A stretch of DNA of 64,000 bases from Planococcus halotolerans (lineage in GTDB: Bacteria > Bacillota > Bacilli > Bacillales_A > Planococcaceae). A program made the translations under genes and the position numbers. Below are positions 4,543 through 45,380 of this stretch, one piece after another. The notes below the pieces were generated by a model. That model was not told the DNA's origin, searched no databases, and saw only the letters and a program-made list of their open reading frames with translations. Within the stretch, counting starts at the first letter, position 1, and each line of letters begins with the position of its first letter. The stretch lies in the NCBI RefSeq assembly GCF_003289955.1, contig NZ_QLZR01000001.1, positions 124,001-188,000 on the forward strand. The letters are read 5' to 3'.

Positions 4543-5091
4543 CTACTTTCTTTTAAATGCTATTCCATTTTCCATCTCAAATGCCTGATCCGCTTCCTGC
4601 ACCAGCCACATATGAATTTTGCCCAGCCATTTCATATATTGTTCGTCACGCATAAAATCGTCCAGTATCTCATTGGAAACTATTACCATGAATTCTATTT
4701 TGCTTAAAATCTGCAATAACGTCTTCTGCATATTTCTCCACTTCAGTTCCATGCAGCCTTTTTGTTCAGCACAAGTTTGTCCGTTATCCCAGCCTTCATA
4801 TAATTCATTGGCCAACCAGGTTGTTACACAATCCCATAACACAGCATCCCCGTTTTCCAGTAAAGGCAACACCTGTTCGAACTGTTTTGCCTGCTCAATC
4901 GTATGCCAGCCGTCCGTTCTCCGATCACTGCGATGCCTTTCTATGCGCTCCCTCATCTCGGTATCATCTGCCCGGCCGCTTGCCAGATAAATTTTTCTTT
5001 GCGCATCAAACTTCCGAACCATGGATTCAGCGCAGGCACTTTTTCCGCTTCGAACACCACCGCTGATAAAAATCATTTTTGCGCGAGCCAT
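4543..5091 (-). CDS. cobU: AdoCbi kinase / AdoCbi-phosphate guanylyltransferase CobU
   Basis: A 182-residue P-loop protein with GGVRSGKS at 11-18, ERHRSDRR around His53 (the residue guanylated in Salmonella CobU), DCVTTWLAN at 87-95 and VSNEI further on. It phosphorylates adenosylcobinamide and then transfers GMP to it to make AdoCbi-GDP for CobS. The C-terminal GxGIVP element usual in CobU is poorly conserved here, whereas the short paralogue at 2826-3251 keeps that element but lacks the HR block. It overlaps the end of cobD by 19 nt and is followed 12 nt later by cobS. Confidence 0.88.
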   Translation of the reverse strand: MARAKMIFISGGVRSGKSACAESMVRKFDAQRKIYLASGRADDTEMRERIERHRSDRRTDGWHTIEQAKQFEQVLPLLENGDAVLWDCVTTWLANELYEGWDNGQTCAEQKGCMELKWRNMQKTLLQILSKIEFMVIVSNEILDDFMRDEQYMKWLGKIHMWLVQEADQAFEMENGIAFKRK

Positions 5092-10791: not shown

Positions 10792-10851
10792 GAAAGGACG
10801 CCATAAAAAGACATGCGCATCCAGCCTGTCCTCGCAAGCTTATGGGTGTTT

Positions 10852-11015
10852 CATAAAGGCAGGTCTCCTGGCTCATGATCATCGCATTCTGCACCTTCCC
10901 GAAACATTGTTCCAGTGGCATTTTACAGATAGCTCTCACTTACAGTGGCGGGACCGCGCCGGAATCGAACCGGCTTCCCTTTTAACTCATGTTCTTAGAC
11001 ATAAGCACCTTTATG
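10852..11015 (-). ncRNA. Cobalamin riboswitch (B12 element)
   Basis: On the minus strand the aptamer runs from 11015 to 10852. The outer P1 stem is a perfect 8-bp pairing of CATAAAGG (11015-11008) with CCTTTATG (10859-10852). Conserved blocks are visible in order: GGTGC near the 5' end, the GGGAAGCCGGT segment, the CCCGCCACTGT B12 box at about 10953-10943, GGGAAGGTGCAGAA, and GAGCCAGGAGACCTGCC before the P1 3' strand. It precedes a terminator and the btuF-cblS operon, so it should repress the operon when adenosylcobalamin is plentiful. Confidence 0.95.
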
Positions 11016-11071
11016 ATTGATATAAAATTTACTTCTCTAGTTCATTATACAGAAATTTTGTGAAATGTCGC

Positions 11072-13301: not shown

Positions 13302-14546
13302 TTAATGCGCCTCTTTATCCTGTTCTTTTTGATTGAGGCCAAGTTTCGCGATCAACGGTTTTATTGTCAGACCCTGAACAATCAAAGAGAACAGCACTAC
13401 GGAAAATGTCAGCAGCAGGATCGTTTCCCTGCCTTCGAAACTTGCGGGAAGGCTAAGTGCCAGTGCAATCGACAAACTTCCCTTTAGCCCTCCCCAGTTC
13501 ACAAGGATTCTTTCCTTTCTGCTCAAGCTTTTCGCCGGCATGGTACTGAGGAAAATGGCAATGATCCGCGCTCCGATAACGATCAAGATTGCGTATAAGA
13601 TGATATTCCATTGCCCCGCGAAGTCGATATTTCGTATTTCCAGACCGACAATCAGGAAGATGAGTGAGTTGGCGATCAATGTTATTACATCCCAAAAAGA
13701 ATTGATATTCCTTTCGGTCGTCGCAGACATCCCGATTCTTCCGCCGTAATCACCGAATACGAATCCACCTGCAACGACTGCAATAACACCCGAAACATGA
13801 AGATGTTCTGCAATAAAATAACTGCCGAAGAACAGCAGTGCCGAGATGGCGATTTCAAATGGATAATCGTCATAGAAGCGGATGATTTGCGAAAAGATAA
13901 AGCCGAGAATCACACCGACCAATACGCCACCTACAGCAAATCGCATAAACATCCAAACACCGCTGCCAACGCCTGCCCATCCCATCTCTATGTAAGTCAG
14001 CAGATAAATAGATGAGATTTGGAATAGGACAATGGCGATTCCATCATTGAACAGAGATTCGCCTTCCATAATGGTCGACAGCTTTTGCGAAACACCTGCA
14101 GATTTAAATATAGAGAGAACGCTGATTGGATCCGTTGCACTCATCAGTGCGGCAAACGTAAAGGCTACGGCAATCGGCATGCCAATCAGGTAATGCGCTG
14201 AAAAGCCAATAATGATAAAGGATAGAAAAGTTCCTCCGAGCGCCATTCCGATAACTGTGTTTTTCTGCTGATACAAATGATGGAACGGAAGCTTGAGCGT
14301 CGCATCCCCCAAAAGAATCGGCAGGAACAAGGAAATGATGATGACCTGAAATACTTCCGATTGCGTGATGAATTCTTCTGCATGGTCAATAAGCGGGAAC
14401 GGCAGATTGATGACGCCAAGCAATAAGCCGACCAGCACCAGCGCAATCGTGTCAGGCTGGTTGATCTTTTTGGCAACACCGACTACCGCGATTGCAATCG
14501 CCAATAATAAGAGGATTTGAATAAAGACTTCATTAAATTCATGCAT
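13302..14546 (-). CDS. CPA1-family Na+(K+)/H+ antiporter, NhaP type
   Basis: A 414-residue membrane protein with about twelve hydrophobic helices. The CPA1 ion-site motifs ATDPISV (137-143) and EGESLFNDGIAIV (161-173) are intact, so an active cation/proton exchanger is likely. The start at 14546 (MHEFNEVF) follows AAAGGGGG by about 7 nt. An upstream ATG at 14606 lacks a good site and would add a polar extension. It is a single-gene unit with its own terminator. The region upstream holds the first 21-bp repeat array. Sodium versus potassium preference cannot be read from the sequence. Confidence 0.88.
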   Translation of the reverse strand: MHEFNEVFIQILLLLAIAIAVVGVAKKINQPDTIALVLVGLLLGVINLPFPLIDHAEEFITQSEVFQVIIISLFLPILLGDATLKLPFHHLYQQKNTVIGMALGGTFLSFIIIGFSAHYLIGMPIAVAFTFAALMSATDPISVLSIFKSAGVSQKLSTIMEGESLFNDGIAIVLFQISSIYLLTYIEMGWAGVGSGVWMFMRFAVGGVLVGVILGFIFSQIIRFYDDYPFEIAISALLFFGSYFIAEHLHVSGVIAVVAGGFVFGDYGGRIGMSATTERNINSFWDVITLIANSLIFLIVGLEIRNIDFAGQWNIILYAILIVIGARIIAIFLSTMPAKSLSRKERILVNWGGLKGSLSIALALSLPASFEGRETILLLTFSVVLFSLIVQGLTIKPLIAKLGLNQKEQDKEAH

Positions 14547-14648
14547 ATTGCTACCCCCTTTTTGATCGTTAGGTAACCATTTCTCTAAACAGACAGGAAT
14601 AAACATAAATATGCCTTCTTTTATGGAGGAATGGGGAGGATTTTGTGG

Positions 14649-14742
14649 TTTATCCGCGGCTGGAGGCTGTTTATCCGCGCCTAGCGTTGATTTATCCGCG
14701 GCAAATGACTGTTTATCCGCGCCTAGCCGGCTTTTATCCGCG
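14649..14742. repeat. 21-bp phased repeat array 1 (TTTATCCGCG x5)
   Basis: Five identical copies of TTTATCCGCG start at 14649, 14670, 14691, 14712 and 14733, spaced exactly 21 bp apart. The 11 bp between cores vary, with CCTAGC recurring in alternate units. The array lies 100-200 bp upstream of the NhaP-like gene and downstream of the speB terminator. Confidence 0.95.
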
Positions 14743-14761
14743 GCAGCCCAAAATTAAATAC

Positions 14762-14804
14762 AAAAAAGCCGATCCGGGAAATTTTCCCGGACCGCCTTTT
14801 TATA
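14762..14804. terminator. Bidirectional-looking terminator after speE-speB
   Basis: Arms 14762-14780 and 14784-14803 form a GC-rich stem with A/T runs on both sides. On the minus strand the stem ends in GGCTTTTTTG. It probably ends the speE-speB transcript. Confidence 0.75.
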
Positions 14805-14805
14805 G

Positions 14806-14962
14806 TGTTGCTTTTCTCTTGTCCAGACTCCTGCGGCCCAGCTCTTCGGGTCATAAGTCAGCCCAGCTGCGCCAATTTAAAAACGTGCTCCTGCATCGCT
14901 GCGCTGCTTCGTCGCAAAGAGATGTCCCAAATTCCATTTGGTTCATCTCTTCGCAGTCGCTT
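14806..14962. repeat. Dispersed palindromic repeat, modules A and B
   Basis: The left half carries module A pieces (TGTCCAGACTCCTGCGG, CAGCTCTTCGGGTCATAAG). The right half carries module B (GCTCCTGCATCGCTGCGCTG, TTCGTCGCAAAGAGATG) with an AAATTCCATTTGG hairpin. It sits directly after the speB stop codon. Confidence 0.75.
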
Positions 14963-14966
14963 TTCT

Positions 14967-15839
14967 CTATTTTACCCAACCAAGTATCATTTCACGAATC
15001 AGCTTGCTCGCTGTATTCGCTGTCTGGTCGGAATGGTCGTATACGGGTGCCAACTCGACCAGGTCGAAGCCGACAACATTGACGCCGGATGCAGCGATGG
15101 CGTGGATAGATGCCAACAACTCGCGCGACGTAATGCCGCCTGCGTCGACAGTTCCTGTGCCTGGTGCGTGCGCCGGGTCCAATACGTCCATATCGATCGT
15201 CACGTAGACGCTGCGTCCTTCAAGCGTCGGCAATACTTCCTTCAACGGCTCGAGAACTTCGAATTTCGAAATGTGCATACCCTGTTCTTTTGCCCACTCG
15301 AATTCTTCTTTCATTCCGGAACGGATGCCGAATGAATAAACATTCTTCGGTCCGATATGGTCCGCGATTTTGCGGATCGGCGTCGAATGCGAATATTCTT
15401 CGCCTTCATAGTTTTCACGAAGGTCCGTGTGCGCGTCGAAATGGATGATTGCCAAGTCGTCGTATTTGCTGGCGACAGCTTTCATCACCGGCAATGATAC
15501 CAAATGCTCGCCGCCCATGCCCATCGGGATTTTATCATCCTTCAATAAGGTATGAACGTAAGTTTCGATTTCCAGCAATGATTTTTCCGGATTGCCGAAT
15601 GGCAACGGAATATCGCCTGCATCAAAAAACTTAACGTCTTCCAGTTCGCGGTCAAGGTACGGGCTGTATTCTTCCAGGCCGATTGACACTTCACGGATTT
15701 TATTCGGGCCGAAACGGGAACCGGGACGGTAGCTTACCGTCCAGTCCATCGGCATGCCGTATAAGACTGCTTTTGACTCTTCGTAATTCGGATGGCTTTT
15801 GATAAATACTTTGCCTGAATAAGTTTCGTCGAATCTCAT
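14967..15839 (-). CDS. speB: Agmatinase SpeB
   Basis: A 290-residue ureohydrolase that converts agmatine to putrescine and urea. The binuclear manganese ligands are visible in GGEH (109-112), DAHTD (135-139) and DMDVLDP (216-222), followed by GTGTVDAGG. It starts 3 nt after the stop of speE, and speE-speB is a known operon in B. subtilis. Together they make putrescine and then spermidine. Guanidinobutyrase or another ureohydrolase specificity cannot be excluded, but the operon partner favours agmatinase. Confidence 0.93.
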   Translation of the reverse strand: MRFDETYSGKVFIKSHPNYEESKAVLYGMPMDWTVSYRPGSRFGPNKIREVSIGLEEYSPYLDRELEDVKFFDAGDIPLPFGNPEKSLLEIETYVHTLLKDDKIPMGMGGEHLVSLPVMKAVASKYDDLAIIHFDAHTDLRENYEGEEYSHSTPIRKIADHIGPKNVYSFGIRSGMKEEFEWAKEQGMHISKFEVLEPLKEVLPTLEGRSVYVTIDMDVLDPAHAPGTGTVDAGGITSRELLASIHAIAASGVNVVGFDLVELAPVYDHSDQTANTASKLIREMILGWVK

Positions 15840-20916: not shown

Positions 20917-20944
20917 TTGAAGGAACTTGAGGGATGGGTATGAT
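20917..20944 (+). promoter_or_regulatory. Promoter of hemQ
   Basis: TTGAAG (20917-20922) and TATGAT (20939-20944) with 16-bp spacing, 46 bp upstream of the hemQ start. Confidence 0.5.
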
Positions 20945-20989
20945 AAACTGGTTTTGAGAGATTTTTTGATTAAAAGGAGTGTTTTACAG

Positions 20990-21739
20990 ATGAATGAAGC
21001 AGCAATCACTTTAGACGGCTGGTACGTCCTCCACGATTTCCGTTCGATGGACTGGGTATCTTGGAAAATGCTTGAAGACGAAGAGCGCCAATTCGCAATC
21101 GACGAATATCAGGCATTTATGGACAAAGTAAACCAGGCCGATGAAAATAAAACCGGCGCACACGCATTGTATTCAATTATTGGCCAAAAGGCTGACTTGA
21201 TGCTGATGCTTTTGCGCGAAACGATGGACGAATTGCGTGAGCTTGAAACGGAATACAATAAGCTGACATTGGTCGCTTACACGGTTCCGACTTACTCTTA
21301 CGTGTCTGTAGTCGAACTTTCCAACTATCTTGCCGGTAAATCAGAAGAAGATCCATATCAGAACCCGCATGTCCGCGCACGTCTGTATCCGGAACTTCAG
21401 CGTTCGCAGTACATCTGCTTCTACCCGATGGACAAGCGCCGCGACGGCGACGACAACTGGTATATGCTGCCGATGGACGAGCGCAAAGATTTGATGCTGT
21501 CACACGGCAAAATCGGCCGCAGCTACGCAGGCAAAGTAAAACAGATCATTTCCGGCTCTGTCGGCTTTGACGACTACGAATGGGGCGTAACTCTGTTCGC
21601 AGATGACGTTCTCCAATTCAAGAAACTGATTTACGAAATGCGTTTTGACGAAGTAAGCGCGCGTTACGCTGAATTCGGTTCGTTTTACGTCGGCACTCGT
21701 TTGGACAAAGAAAAAATCGTTAAGTTCTTGGAAGTTTAA
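20990..21739 (+). CDS. hemQ: Coproheme decarboxylase HemQ/ChdC
   Basis: A 249-residue chlorite-dismutase-family enzyme that performs the last step of the Gram-positive coproporphyrin-dependent heme pathway, decarboxylating two propionates of coproheme with peroxide. The start at 20990 follows AAAAGGAG. The catalytic tyrosine is Tyr145 in [13 protein letters not shown] with Lys149 nearby, and the proximal heme ligand is probably His172 in MLSHGKIGR. Numbering matches the Staphylococcus enzyme closely. It is monocistronic, with a promoter and terminator of its own. Confidence 0.95.
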
Positions 21740-21754
21740 TAGTAGAGTGAATGG

Positions 21755-21782
21755 AAAGCCGCCTATTTGGGCGGCTTTTATT
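21755..21782 (+). terminator. Terminator of hemQ
   Basis: AAAGCCGCC (21755-21763) pairs with the following GGGCGGCTTT around a short loop, then TTATT. Confidence 0.85.
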
Positions 21783-21882
21783 AGTGGGAATTTTATATTG
21801 AGATGTTGTTGGAGTGTTTGAGCATGCAACTACTGGCAATAAAATACATAATTATAATCATAACCACCGATTTTTCTTCAAG

Positions 21883-21994
21883 CGCAACTAAATTGGTTCT
21901 AACCGCAACTAATTGCCTTTTAACCGCAACTAAATTGGTTTCAACCGCAACTAATTGTCTTCAGACCGCACCTCAGAAGCATATTTCCGCACCT
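21883..21994. repeat. 21-bp phased repeat array 2 (CGCAACT / CGCACCT x6)
   Basis: Six cores start at 21883, 21904, 21925, 21946, 21967 and 21988, each exactly 21 bp after the last. The first four are CGCAACT, most within AACCGCAACTAA, and the last two are CGCACCT. Spacers alternate between AATTGGTT-like and AATTGYCT-like forms. The array lies in the intergenic space between the hemQ terminator and ywdK. Confidence 0.95.
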
Positions 21995-22110
21995 CATATA
22001 TGTGTGACGAAAAATTTGGATTTTATTGGATAATTCAGCGTCTGAATCAAAGACTTTCCAAGTCCATTTCCAACCAACCACCATATCGCCCTCTCTTCAT
22101 TTCCATTTTA

Positions 22111-22268
22111 TTGGATATACTATCCACATCAATTTACCCTTACCCAAAGCCCTGACTGCCTGCAGTTTGCCCCCGCAAACTGCCTCGGTCCGTGAGCGCT
22201 GCGCCGCTCACTTCCATCTATCCTTTATTGATTTTTTGATCCTTCTCGCTTATTTGGATATACTATCC
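22111..22268. repeat. Hairpin cassette flanked by TTGGATATACTATCC repeats
   Basis: The 15-mer TTGGATATACTATCC occurs at 22111-22125 and again at 22254-22268. Between the copies lie two perfect hairpins, GCAGTTTGC/GCAAACTGC (22162-22183) and GTGAGCG/CGCTCAC (22192-22211). No coding content is visible. Confidence 0.75.
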
Positions 22269-22313
22269 GGAATTACTGAAATACTAACTATTATCCGCAC
22301 GCATTCTGCCCAT

Positions 22314-22352
22314 CAAAAAAAGCTGTCCGCATCTAACCCGCGGACAGCTTTT
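22314..22352 (-). terminator. Terminator of the ung-ywdI-ywdK group
   Basis: AAAGCTGTCCGC pairs with GCGGACAGCTTT, followed on the minus strand by TTTTGATG. It lies 8 nt past the ywdK stop. Confidence 0.9.
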
Positions 22353-22359
22353 CCAATTC

Positions 22360-22737
22360 TTATAATGCTTTCATTGCAGCAATGATGAGCATGACCCAGC
22401 CAGCGATGAATGCTACGCCGCCGATTGGCGTGATGGCACCCAAAATGCTGATGCCGGTCAAACTTAAAACGTACAGGCTTCCCGAGAAGATGATGATGCC
22501 GGCAAGCATCAAATATCCTGCCCAGCTCAGCGATCCCAGTGGACCGATTAAAGTGGTGCTCATCAAAACGGCTACGACCATCAGTCCGATTGAATGAAAC
22601 ATCTGATACTGTACGGCAGTTTGCCATGTGTCCAAGTATTTATCAGCAACGCGGCCTTCCAGCATATGCGCGCCGAACGCACCGAAAGCTACGCTTAGTA
22701 ATGCATTAACAGCTCCGGCAATCAAGAAAAATTTCAT
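22360..22737 (-). CDS. ywdK: DUF423 membrane protein YwdK
   Basis: A 125-residue protein with four hydrophobic helices of the DUF423 family. The N-terminal MKFFLIAGAVNALLSVAFGAFGAHML is the most conserved part, with GAFGAH as its signature. The function is unknown. It is the last gene of a minus-strand group with ywdI and ung, the order seen around B. subtilis ywdK. Confidence 0.85.
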   Translation of the reverse strand: MKFFLIAGAVNALLSVAFGAFGAHMLEGRVADKYLDTWQTAVQYQMFHSIGLMVVAVLMSTTLIGPLGSLSWAGYLMLAGIIIFSGSLYVLSLTGISILGAITPIGGVAFIAGWVMLIIAAMKAL

Positions 22738-44333: not shown

Positions 44334-45320
44334 TTGATACTTAAAGAACGCTGCCAGCCACCCGAAATTTTTCAACTGGAAAGTCTGATGCAACGTGTAC
44401 CCATCGTCCATCCCCTATTTCCCCACTGGACGGAACAGCTTCGCCGAATCTCTGCCGGCTTCAACGGTGAACAGCGCGTCGATTCCCTTTTCTACGAGAT
44501 TCCTATCGAAACTTCCCACTACTTTATACAAGATCTCTACATCCAAAAGCCCAAGTCCTCACACCAGGTTGATACCGTGCTCGTCACCAGCCGTTTCGTC
44601 CTGCTGCTTGAAATTAAATCCATTACAGGCGAGTTGAATTTCGATCCACAGCTGCGCCAATTTTCCCGTACCAATAAAGACGGCAGCGTCGACGGCATGA
44701 ACAACCCCGACGACCAAATCCGCCGCCACGAAAAATGGATGCAGCATTTTTTAGCGGAGCAAAAAATATCACTTCCAGTCATTGGAGTAATCGTATTCAC
44801 TTATCCATCGTCTATTGTGAACAGCCGGCCGAAAAACCGCATCATCATTCAATCATCCGGTTTGCCTTATTTAATGGATCAGCTGTTGGCGAAATATCCG
44901 AACGAGTTGCTCAATACGCGCAAAACCCGCCACCTCGCCGGACGTCTTCTGCAATTGCACAGTGTCAGGCCGTTGCGGCGGATAGCGGTTCCGGTGGGTT
45001 TGCGGAGGGGTGTGTTGTGTGGCAAAGATTGCGGAGGAACAATGAATTTAAACTGGCGTAAGTGGATTTGCGATAAATGTTCTCGCATTGATCGCTATGC
45101 CCATTTCGAAACATTGTTGCAATATAGAGTGTTAATCAGCCAAACAATTACAAATAATGAATTCCGGAAATTTACCGGAATTGATTCTGTTGCTACTGCA
45201 TCAAAGTTATTAAGAATAGCTAATATGCCCTCTAAAGGCAGTTATAAAGATCGAATTTATACTATCCCTGAAGAGATAATCAGACTGGAAAGTATTTCGA
45301 CTGATTTGGAAAGTATTTAA
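44334..45320 (+). CDS. NERD (nuclease-related) domain protein, TTG start
   Basis: A 328-residue protein. The NERD domain occupies about residues 40-160, with the conserved acidic/lysine pattern VDTVLVTSRFVLLLEIKSI. A zinc-finger-like CGKDCGG...CDKC follows near 235-253, then a C-terminal helical domain. The start is a TTG at 44334, about 10 nt after GAAGGAG; the ATG between them is out of frame. NERD proteins are predicted nucleases with unsettled roles. The C terminus runs into the 21-bp repeat array, and the last residues are encoded by it. Confidence 0.8.
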   Translation: MILKERCQPPEIFQLESLMQRVPIVHPLFPHWTEQLRRISAGFNGEQRVDSLFYEIPIETSHYFIQDLYIQKPKSSHQVDTVLVTSRFVLLLEIKSITGELNFDPQLRQFSRTNKDGSVDGMNNPDDQIRRHEKWMQHFLAEQKISLPVIGVIVFTYPSSIVNSRPKNRIIIQSSGLPYLMDQLLAKYPNELLNTRKTRHLAGRLLQLHSVRPLRRIAVPVGLRRGVLCGKDCGGTMNLNWRKWICDKCSRIDRYAHFETLLQYRVLISQTITNNEFRKFTGIDSVATASKLLRIANMPSKGSYKDRIYTIPEEIIRLESISTDLESI

Positions 45321-45380
45321 GTCATATTGGAAAGTATTTAAGCTAATTTGAAAAGTATTTTGGCCATTTCGGAAAGTAAG
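45287..45380. repeat. 21-bp phased repeat array 3 (GGAAAGTATT x5)
   Basis: Cores start at 45287, 45308, 45329, 45350 and 45371, exactly 21 bp apart. The first three are GGAAAGTATT, the fourth GAAAAGTATT and the fifth GGAAAGTAAG. Units 1 and 2 lie within the end of the NERD gene and encode LESIS and LESI. The remaining units are past its stop codon. Confidence 0.95.

Follow-up and report, generated by a model that had tools for sequence, protein, structure and literature searches.

The BIME/REP arrays of enterobacteria lie in intergenic DNA at the 3′ ends of genes, vary in the number of their units and are built of two alternating unit types; a role for gyrase or for bending proteins has been proposed for them, and REPs are palindromic and belong to one sequence family. 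CRISPR arrays, in which constant and variable parts alternate, have a repeat–spacer step of about 55–80 bp. Closer to the arrays described here are the repeats reported by Subirana and Messeguer (2021; PMC8161180), whose 4029 tandem repeats from 176 Bacillus genomes include 781 of 20–21 nt, constant in size, variable in sequence, present as several families per species and with no known function. The same paper, which cites the authors' 2020 paper in the Journal of Bacteriology, already points out that the unit spans two helical turns, proposes a polymerizing nucleoid protein or small RNAs, counts 29 such repeats in the 4.36 Mb of B. weihaiensis and reports that 52-nt repeats are transcribed in B. 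coagulans. In the literature that we searched, we found no functional follow-up of the 20–21-nt class.

Three arrays with a 21-bp step lie in the 64,000-nucleotide stretch of the Planococcus halotolerans genome analyzed here (the window). Together with those found elsewhere in this genome, they resemble BIME/REP arrays in their intergenic location at gene 3′ ends, their variable unit number and the alternation of two unit types, but they repeat many different words in direct orientation, strictly every two turns, and they lack the palindromic hairpin of REPs in that 49 arrays, folded on both strands, folded no better than permuted arrays. Like CRISPR arrays they alternate constant and variable parts; however, they advance by 20–21 bp, with about 6 variable bases per unit, and occur at tens of loci with different words. 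What they belong to is the published class of constant-size 20–21-nt tandem repeats, so that the sequence-only reading, which knew of no such element, is not supported on this point. As in that class, units of 20–21 nt occur four or more in a row (array 1 has five of 21 bp; 52 arrays were found in all in our genome sample), families of the same size have unrelated sequences (33 over all sets), the arrays are mostly non-coding (in the window, arrays 1 and 2 lie between genes and the third overlaps the end of an ORF), a short signal is kept within the repeats, and the distribution is patchy across species, with families specific to a species or its close relatives (the array part of array 1 matches 4 of 46 Planococcus genomes, the source genome included, and other words are spread more widely in the genus). 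The published class differs in having been described for Bacillus genomes. Density appears higher here, at 50 arrays in 0.864 Mb versus 29 in 4.36 Mb in B. weihaiensis, but our rule is the looser one and the criteria differ. Features that we did not see in the text of PMC8161180, and that our analysis adds, are an AT/GC layout, the slow divergence of the cores, a change of word at an orthologous site and the location past terminators.

Three arrays of the window and their surroundings

Direct reading and repeat scans bore out the five perfect cores at an exact 21-bp step that the sequence-only reading had placed at 14649–14742: the core TTTATCCGCG of array 1 begins at 14649, 14670, 14691, 14712 and 14733, and each unit consists of this 10-bp core, 6 free bases and 5 semi-conserved bases of the CTAGG or TTTGC/CAGC types. 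In the window as a whole, a single position starts a fivefold 10-mer repeat with a uniform spacing of between 12 and 60, and this spacing is 21; 7-mers repeated at least four times at a constant step start at 14 positions, all with step 21. A scan of offsets 10–60 with a threshold of 40 identities in 63 returned just 21 and its double, 42. Tandem Repeats Finder detects all three arrays and, because adjacent units alternate, scores them higher at period 42 than at period 21. The array 1 query as a whole matched 17 of the 46 Planococcus genomes, 13 of these through its gene part only. In the neighborhood of array 1 (Table 1), inspection and orthologues indicate that the exchanger gene likely starts at the ATG at 14546–14544, behind AGGGGG, the ORF list giving an earlier start at 14606; no promoter-like match was found at 14500–15000.

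The two further arrays that had been noted as sharing the 21-bp step while differing in their cores both exist. In array 2, read by eye, CGCA recurs at 21883, 21904, 21925, 21946, 21967 and 21988, and the word switches from the first to the second of its two forms part-way along, with the register kept, up to an end at about 21998. The loose motif TTTAWCCGCR proposed as common to arrays 1 and 2 fared less well, fitting exactly in just one unit of array 2. Our hairpin finder counted a terminator-like hairpin on each side of this array, contrary to a separate terminator scan of 21700–22400, in which no terminator-like site was found. In array 3, also read by eye, GGAAAG or GAAAAG recurs at 45287, 45308, 45329, 45350 and 45371. 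The tail of the NERD-domain ORF (45286–45320) is read from the repeat and by eye shows LESI repeated at a heptad step; array 3 may have displaced the original end of this gene.

Table 1. Positions of the three arrays and of neighboring features in the window
Feature	Position	Strand	Description
Sodium/hydrogen exchanger gene	13302..14546	-	PF00999; downstream of array 1
Array 1	14649..14744	-	Five 21-bp units; word CGCGGATAAA on the - strand, TTTATCCGCG on the + strand
Terminator-like hairpin	14770..14794	both	Separates the speB-type gene from array 1
Arginase/agmatinase-family gene (speB-like)	14967..15839	-	PF00491; 3′ end towards array 1
Chlorite-dismutase-family gene (hemQ-like)	20927..21739	+	PF06778; upstream of array 2
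Array 2	21875..21998	+	Six in-register 21-bp units: four CGCAACTAA, two CGCACCTCA
NERD-domain ORF	44334..45320	+	PF08378; last codons enter the first two units of array 3
Array 3	45286..45378	+	Five 21-bp units of GGAAAGTATTT

Step, position and distribution of the arrays

We scanned 864 kb of the genome, 24% of its 3.62 Mb (17 contigs) with the window included, for stretches in which 38 or more of 63 positions were identical at offsets of 19–23, and applied a composition filter; the sample is non-random, coming from two contigs and including some blocks picked for their matches to word family F1. This yielded 52 arrays, of which 41 repeat at 21 bp and the other 11 at 20 bp; there was none of period 19, 22 or 23 after the filter, which dropped one AT-rich low-complexity array of period 19 (L024:4264). 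Order-2 Markov surrogates of the sample contained no array at 20 or 21 in any of 6 replicates. When offsets 12–40 were scanned in the same 864 kb, the other periods found were 12 (3 arrays), 14 (1), 16 (1), 18 (3), 24 (2), 27 (1), 30 (5), 33 (1), 36 (1), 39 (2) and 40 (10), the ten at 40 presumably being doubled 20s. The sequence-only reading was to be given up if steps of 18–24 bp proved equally common, and the counts around 21 leave it standing: the 20–21-bp step is supported as special in the P. halotolerans genome. If the sample is representative, the roughly 50 arrays in 864 kb extrapolate to about 200 genome-wide.

The arrays lie between genes and mostly behind them. Fifty of the 52 are outside called genes, the exceptions being a coding array at L015 and one (L028:18202) that falls inside an ORF of our gene caller, a crude one that also missed the NERD-domain ORF; of the 29 calls with period 20 or 21 in the first 464 kb, 27 were intergenic. 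Among gaps of at least 150 bp, to which we could assign 45 of the 49 arrays, 183 tandem gaps held 33 arrays, 48 convergent gaps 7 and 74 divergent gaps 5; in tandem gaps the median distance of an array was 124 bp to the gene upstream and 345 bp to the next start. A terminator-like hairpin stands before the array at 39 of the 48 gene 3′ ends that face one; there is none at 7, and at 2 it lies beyond the array. With a reach of up to 140 nt, the hairpin finder gave hits at 30 of 39 gene 3′ ends and 4 of 35 5′ ends in array-bearing gaps, and at 81 of 163 and 28 of 193, respectively, in array-free gaps. Word orientation leans to the gene strand, by 26 to 6 in the raw count and by 15 to 7 after clusters within 10 kb were collapsed, a count that omits 3 arrays without an assigned word and in which the F4 word is reversed relative to the raw count (its original orientation gives 16 to 6); a bias with the direction of transcription is not decisive.

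Two other candidates were tried and rejected. Coding heptad repeats do not account for the arrays, because 11 of the 52 have a 20-bp step and nearly all lie outside called genes; the 20-bp families are unable to hold a reading frame. Structured RNA was rejected on the grounds that no Rfam match falls at the arrays and that folding is no better than in permuted arrays (mean z −0.11 for the 49 arrays on both strands, with 7 of 98 values below −2). The sole Rfam match of the window is a cobalamin riboswitch at 10841–11027 on the minus strand (125 bits), away from the arrays.

About a dozen words could be distinguished within the P. halotolerans sample, for example CGCGGATAAA, AAAATCG(CTG or ACG)ATAAAC, TTTTGTTGTCGTATA, AAGTTGGGCGTATTTT and GGAAAGTATTT at 21 bp and AGTGATCATAGAA and TTTATGGGCGATTAA at 20 bp. 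The step is largely tied to the word: distances of up to 70 between neighboring F1 words are 21 in 47 of 50 cases here and in 71 of 75 in relatives, and family F6 mixes the two steps (21 distances of 20, 5 of 21). By eye, F1 arrays at separate loci have the order of their unit types in common, and so seem to be copies of one ancestral array, and some word families are clustered regionally. At L124:930–1560 and 4640–5060 there are tandem composites of about 240 bp, each an F3 array followed by a GC-rich hairpin-like sequence. At L194:12371 of a related genome (G017), the 20-bp word AGTGATCATAGAA/TTCTATGATCACT forms an array of 17 units; in the P. halotolerans sample the same word has 4–6 units, a comparison made by word alone.

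Beyond this genome the arrays are scattered. One 20-kb stretch from each of eight other Planococcus genomes contained no array. In 800 kb from 20 other Bacilli genomes (40 regions) there was one intergenic array at 21, with other matches at periods 18, 19, 31, 32, 40, 41 (2), 42 (2) and 43 (3), so that no preference for 20–21 was visible. A further 360 kb, drawn behind array-bearing loci in 14 genomes of array-bearing genera (18 regions, after two contigs of about 200 bases were dropped from 20 pieces), gave two arrays at 21 and one each at 22, 34 and 42. The paired pattern GGACAGTA was found in 1 of 16 genomes across genera, a weak showing. Since the preference is not visible in the other Bacilli sampled and the eight Planococcus stretches had no arrays, the element is patchy and probably dispensable. 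An intergenic repeat with a 43-bp period at L222:8229 (G080) is close to four helical turns.

Core divergence and exchange of words at orthologous sites

We compared arrays with their orthologues in three relatives (G029, G017 and G039), in 16 comparisons covering 12 loci, 4 of which were used against two relatives; five loci whose arrays did not align cleanly were left out (L016:18244, L027:9931, L119:3378, L126:10801 and L127:16582). Cores differed at 33 of 826 positions (4.0%), variable parts at 118 of 740 (15.9%) and the 150-bp flanks, which combine coding and non-coding DNA, at 539 of 4447 (12.1%), so that cores diverge 3–4 times more slowly than spacers or flanks (Fisher p of 4e-16 against the variable part and 3e-14 against the flanks). 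To delimit the core we took fixed words from the family lists and allowed them at most 2 mismatches in the source genome, a choice that slightly favors a low core divergence; two undefined positions within the F2 and F5 words were tallied separately and differed in 10 of 40 cases. Because the cores diverge more slowly than either the spacers or the flanks, they look to be under selection, as judged from these alignments. Slippage copies whole units, and core and variable part would then be expected to diverge alike.

Whole units are gained or lost between orthologous arrays. Among 24 gaps inside such arrays, six are of exactly 21 bases, pairs of 10+10 and 3+18 sum to 20 or 21, and the rest are of 1–6 bases; between adjacent words the distance stays at 21 or 20 with few exceptions, so that the step itself is kept. 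The words themselves also change. Among the best 30 of the 44 Planococcus genomes with the chlorite-dismutase gene, 15 carry a 20–21-bp array within about 310 bp of its 3′ end and 17 carry one anywhere in the locus, and the word at this site is, depending on the genome, CGCAACTAA, CGCACCTCA, GAAAGTAT or GACAGTAT. On the 3′ side of speB, 11 of 80 named loci, some of which stop short of 500 bp, bear 12 arrays within that distance, with differing words; these loci come from Planococcus/Planomicrobium, Ureibacillus, Lysinibacillus, Rossellomorea, Bacillus and Jeotgalibacillus. The 12 arrays fall in 23.4 kb of intergenic DNA after speB, versus 23 in 159.9 kb elsewhere and one more in coding DNA. 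At 40 of 63 identities, the 80 loci contained 27 arrays of period 21, the remaining 15 matches having periods of 15, 24, 30, 32, 33, 34 and 39. The word switch within array 2, together with the differing words at orthologous sites, the step remaining constant throughout, upholds the earlier suggestion that the core turns over while the spacing is kept. Directly after speB, the loci L033–L042 carry another dispersed element of at least 100 bp, running from GAAAAGCGGAAGCG to GGAGCTAGACAA and sometimes in tandem, which we take to resemble a dispersed Bacillales element.

A shared AT/GC layout and its possible readings

Over all sets (the source genome, its genus and, for other Bacillales, the speB loci) we linked words by shared 8-mers into 33 families, which have no 8-mer in common. 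Across these families the share of the AT variance at half the period (10–10.5 bp) was 0.234, a value that none of 2000 column permutations reached (mean 0.100, sd 0.016) and that compares with 0.109 in other intergenic DNA and 0.096 in coding DNA of the source genome. The averaged and symmetrized profile can be written W5-S5-W5-N6, that is, about 5 AT-rich, 5 GC-rich and 5 AT-rich bases followed by 6 variable bases near neutral, and it was seen in all three sets of 21-bp arrays (n = 38, 50 and 23). AA/TT phasing exceeded that of permuted controls in 39 of 49, 46 of 53 and 21 of 23 arrays of the three sets, and was also above background. The layout is weak in some families of the source genome (0.05 in both F6 and F4). 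Only three arrays were sampled later: one from other Bacilli has the layout, with a share of 0.290 that 108 of 2000 permutations equaled or exceeded, and in two from array-bearing genera it was absent (mean share 0.042 versus a null of 0.100); as an attempt at replication this is underpowered, and it lends the layout no support. Wedge-model curvature, computed with assumed parameters, was not above permuted controls in the source genome (p = 0.31, 25 of 49 above) and was above them in the genus and Bacillales sets. Because AA/TT phasing exceeds both column-permuted controls and background, the best reading of the arrays is a DNA-level element presenting one face of the helix, as had been proposed from the identical two-turn step.

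Starting from the step, the location, the slow divergence of the cores and the turnover of units that we observe, and from the layout found in all three sets, we regard it as roughly an even call that the intergenic two-turn arrays are a DNA scaffold that shows one face to a putative nucleoid-type or DNA-bending reader. Each unit comprises two helical turns (20 or 21 bp), with a core of about 15 bp laid out as AT/GC/AT and about 6 unconstrained bases, so that equal features would recur on the same helix face every two turns across 80–150 bp and the surface of the array would be bent, or easily bent, to one side. The array may be bound or wrapped by a protein for which shape and phase matter more than the exact sequence, candidates being a nucleoid-associated protein such as HU/HBsu or a Rok/Lrp-like protein, or gyrase. 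Lying past a terminator-like hairpin, an array may serve to separate transcription units structurally or topologically. Words could then drift and spread by unit duplication with the step kept, because such a reader needs the phase and the AT/GC layout and not any one word. The strand lean of the words (26 to 6, or 15 to 7 when collapsed), for which a symmetric DNA element has no need, counts against this scaffold. So do the families and the two later arrays that lack the layout, the wedge curvature that is not raised in the source genome, the missing 20–21 preference in other Bacilli, the patchy presence and the separate terminator scan near array 2. A broader proposal, which we make tentatively and consider on the whole doubtful, is that constant-size repeats in general follow a sequence-independent code of about 5 AT, 5 GC, 5 AT and 6 free bases per two turns, that a scaffold reader recognizes phase and layout so that one word can freely replace another, within a single array as well as at a given orthologous site, and that the 52-nt class obeys the same code over five turns. 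The published 52-nt class, with 1886 repeats of 51–53 nt, has a unit close to five turns (52/10.4) and would fit the same phase rule.

Four other readings were ranked, from operator arrays through neutral minisatellites and dispersed elements to RNA sources. That each word is the site of its own regulator, repeated on one face for cooperative binding, would agree with cores conserved letter by letter between orthologues, with the recurrence of words at several loci per genome and genus-wide (GACAGTAT, GAAAGTAT and CGCACCTCA at the hemQ site) and with a core of about 15 bp plus 6 free bases, a plausible protein footprint; however, a single genome would have to hold about a dozen such words, arrays are fewer in the divergent gaps where promoters are (5 per 74, versus 33 per 183 in tandem gaps), and one orthologous site carries differing words, and we judge operators rather unlikely. 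Unit number is labile (gains and losses between orthologues; 17 units in G017 against 4–6 here) and presence patchy, as neutral minisatellites born of slippage would have it, their unit size reflecting some property of the replication machinery and having no function; yet slippage would not spare one part of the unit, and with cores at 4.0% and flanks and variable parts at 12.1% and 15.9% this origin seems unlikely.

The shared unit-type order of F1 arrays at separate loci (by eye), the regional clustering of some families and the F3 arrays within composite repeats of about 240 bp point towards a MITE-like or REP-like dispersed repeat, copied between places and with its repeats serving the copying enzyme. 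This we rank third and also hold to be improbable, in that the arrays contain no hairpin signal and families without a common 8-mer nevertheless share the layout. Least probable, and in our estimate very unlikely, is a source of small RNAs, a reading offered by Subirana and Messeguer as well, in which transcripts of the arrays would offer the repeated word for pairing with RNAs or for binding by an RNA chaperone. In its favor, words tend towards one orientation with respect to genes, and 52-nt repeats are reported to be transcribed in B. coagulans (PMC8161180); against it, most arrays lie past terminator-like hairpins. RNA structure was not above permuted controls, and the single Rfam hit of the window, the cobalamin riboswitch, lies away from the arrays. 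We know of no meaning that a 20–21-nt step would have for RNA.

About two hundred arrays, if the sample is representative, would be a large amount of kept non-coding DNA for a small genome. The class has stood unexplained since its description, and the core, the 6 free bases, the step and the layout make two questions testable, namely whether one protein binds arrays of unrelated words and whether it needs the step. If both hold, shape and phase, in place of sequence, would define an element of the bacterial chromosome, one that escapes motif searches.
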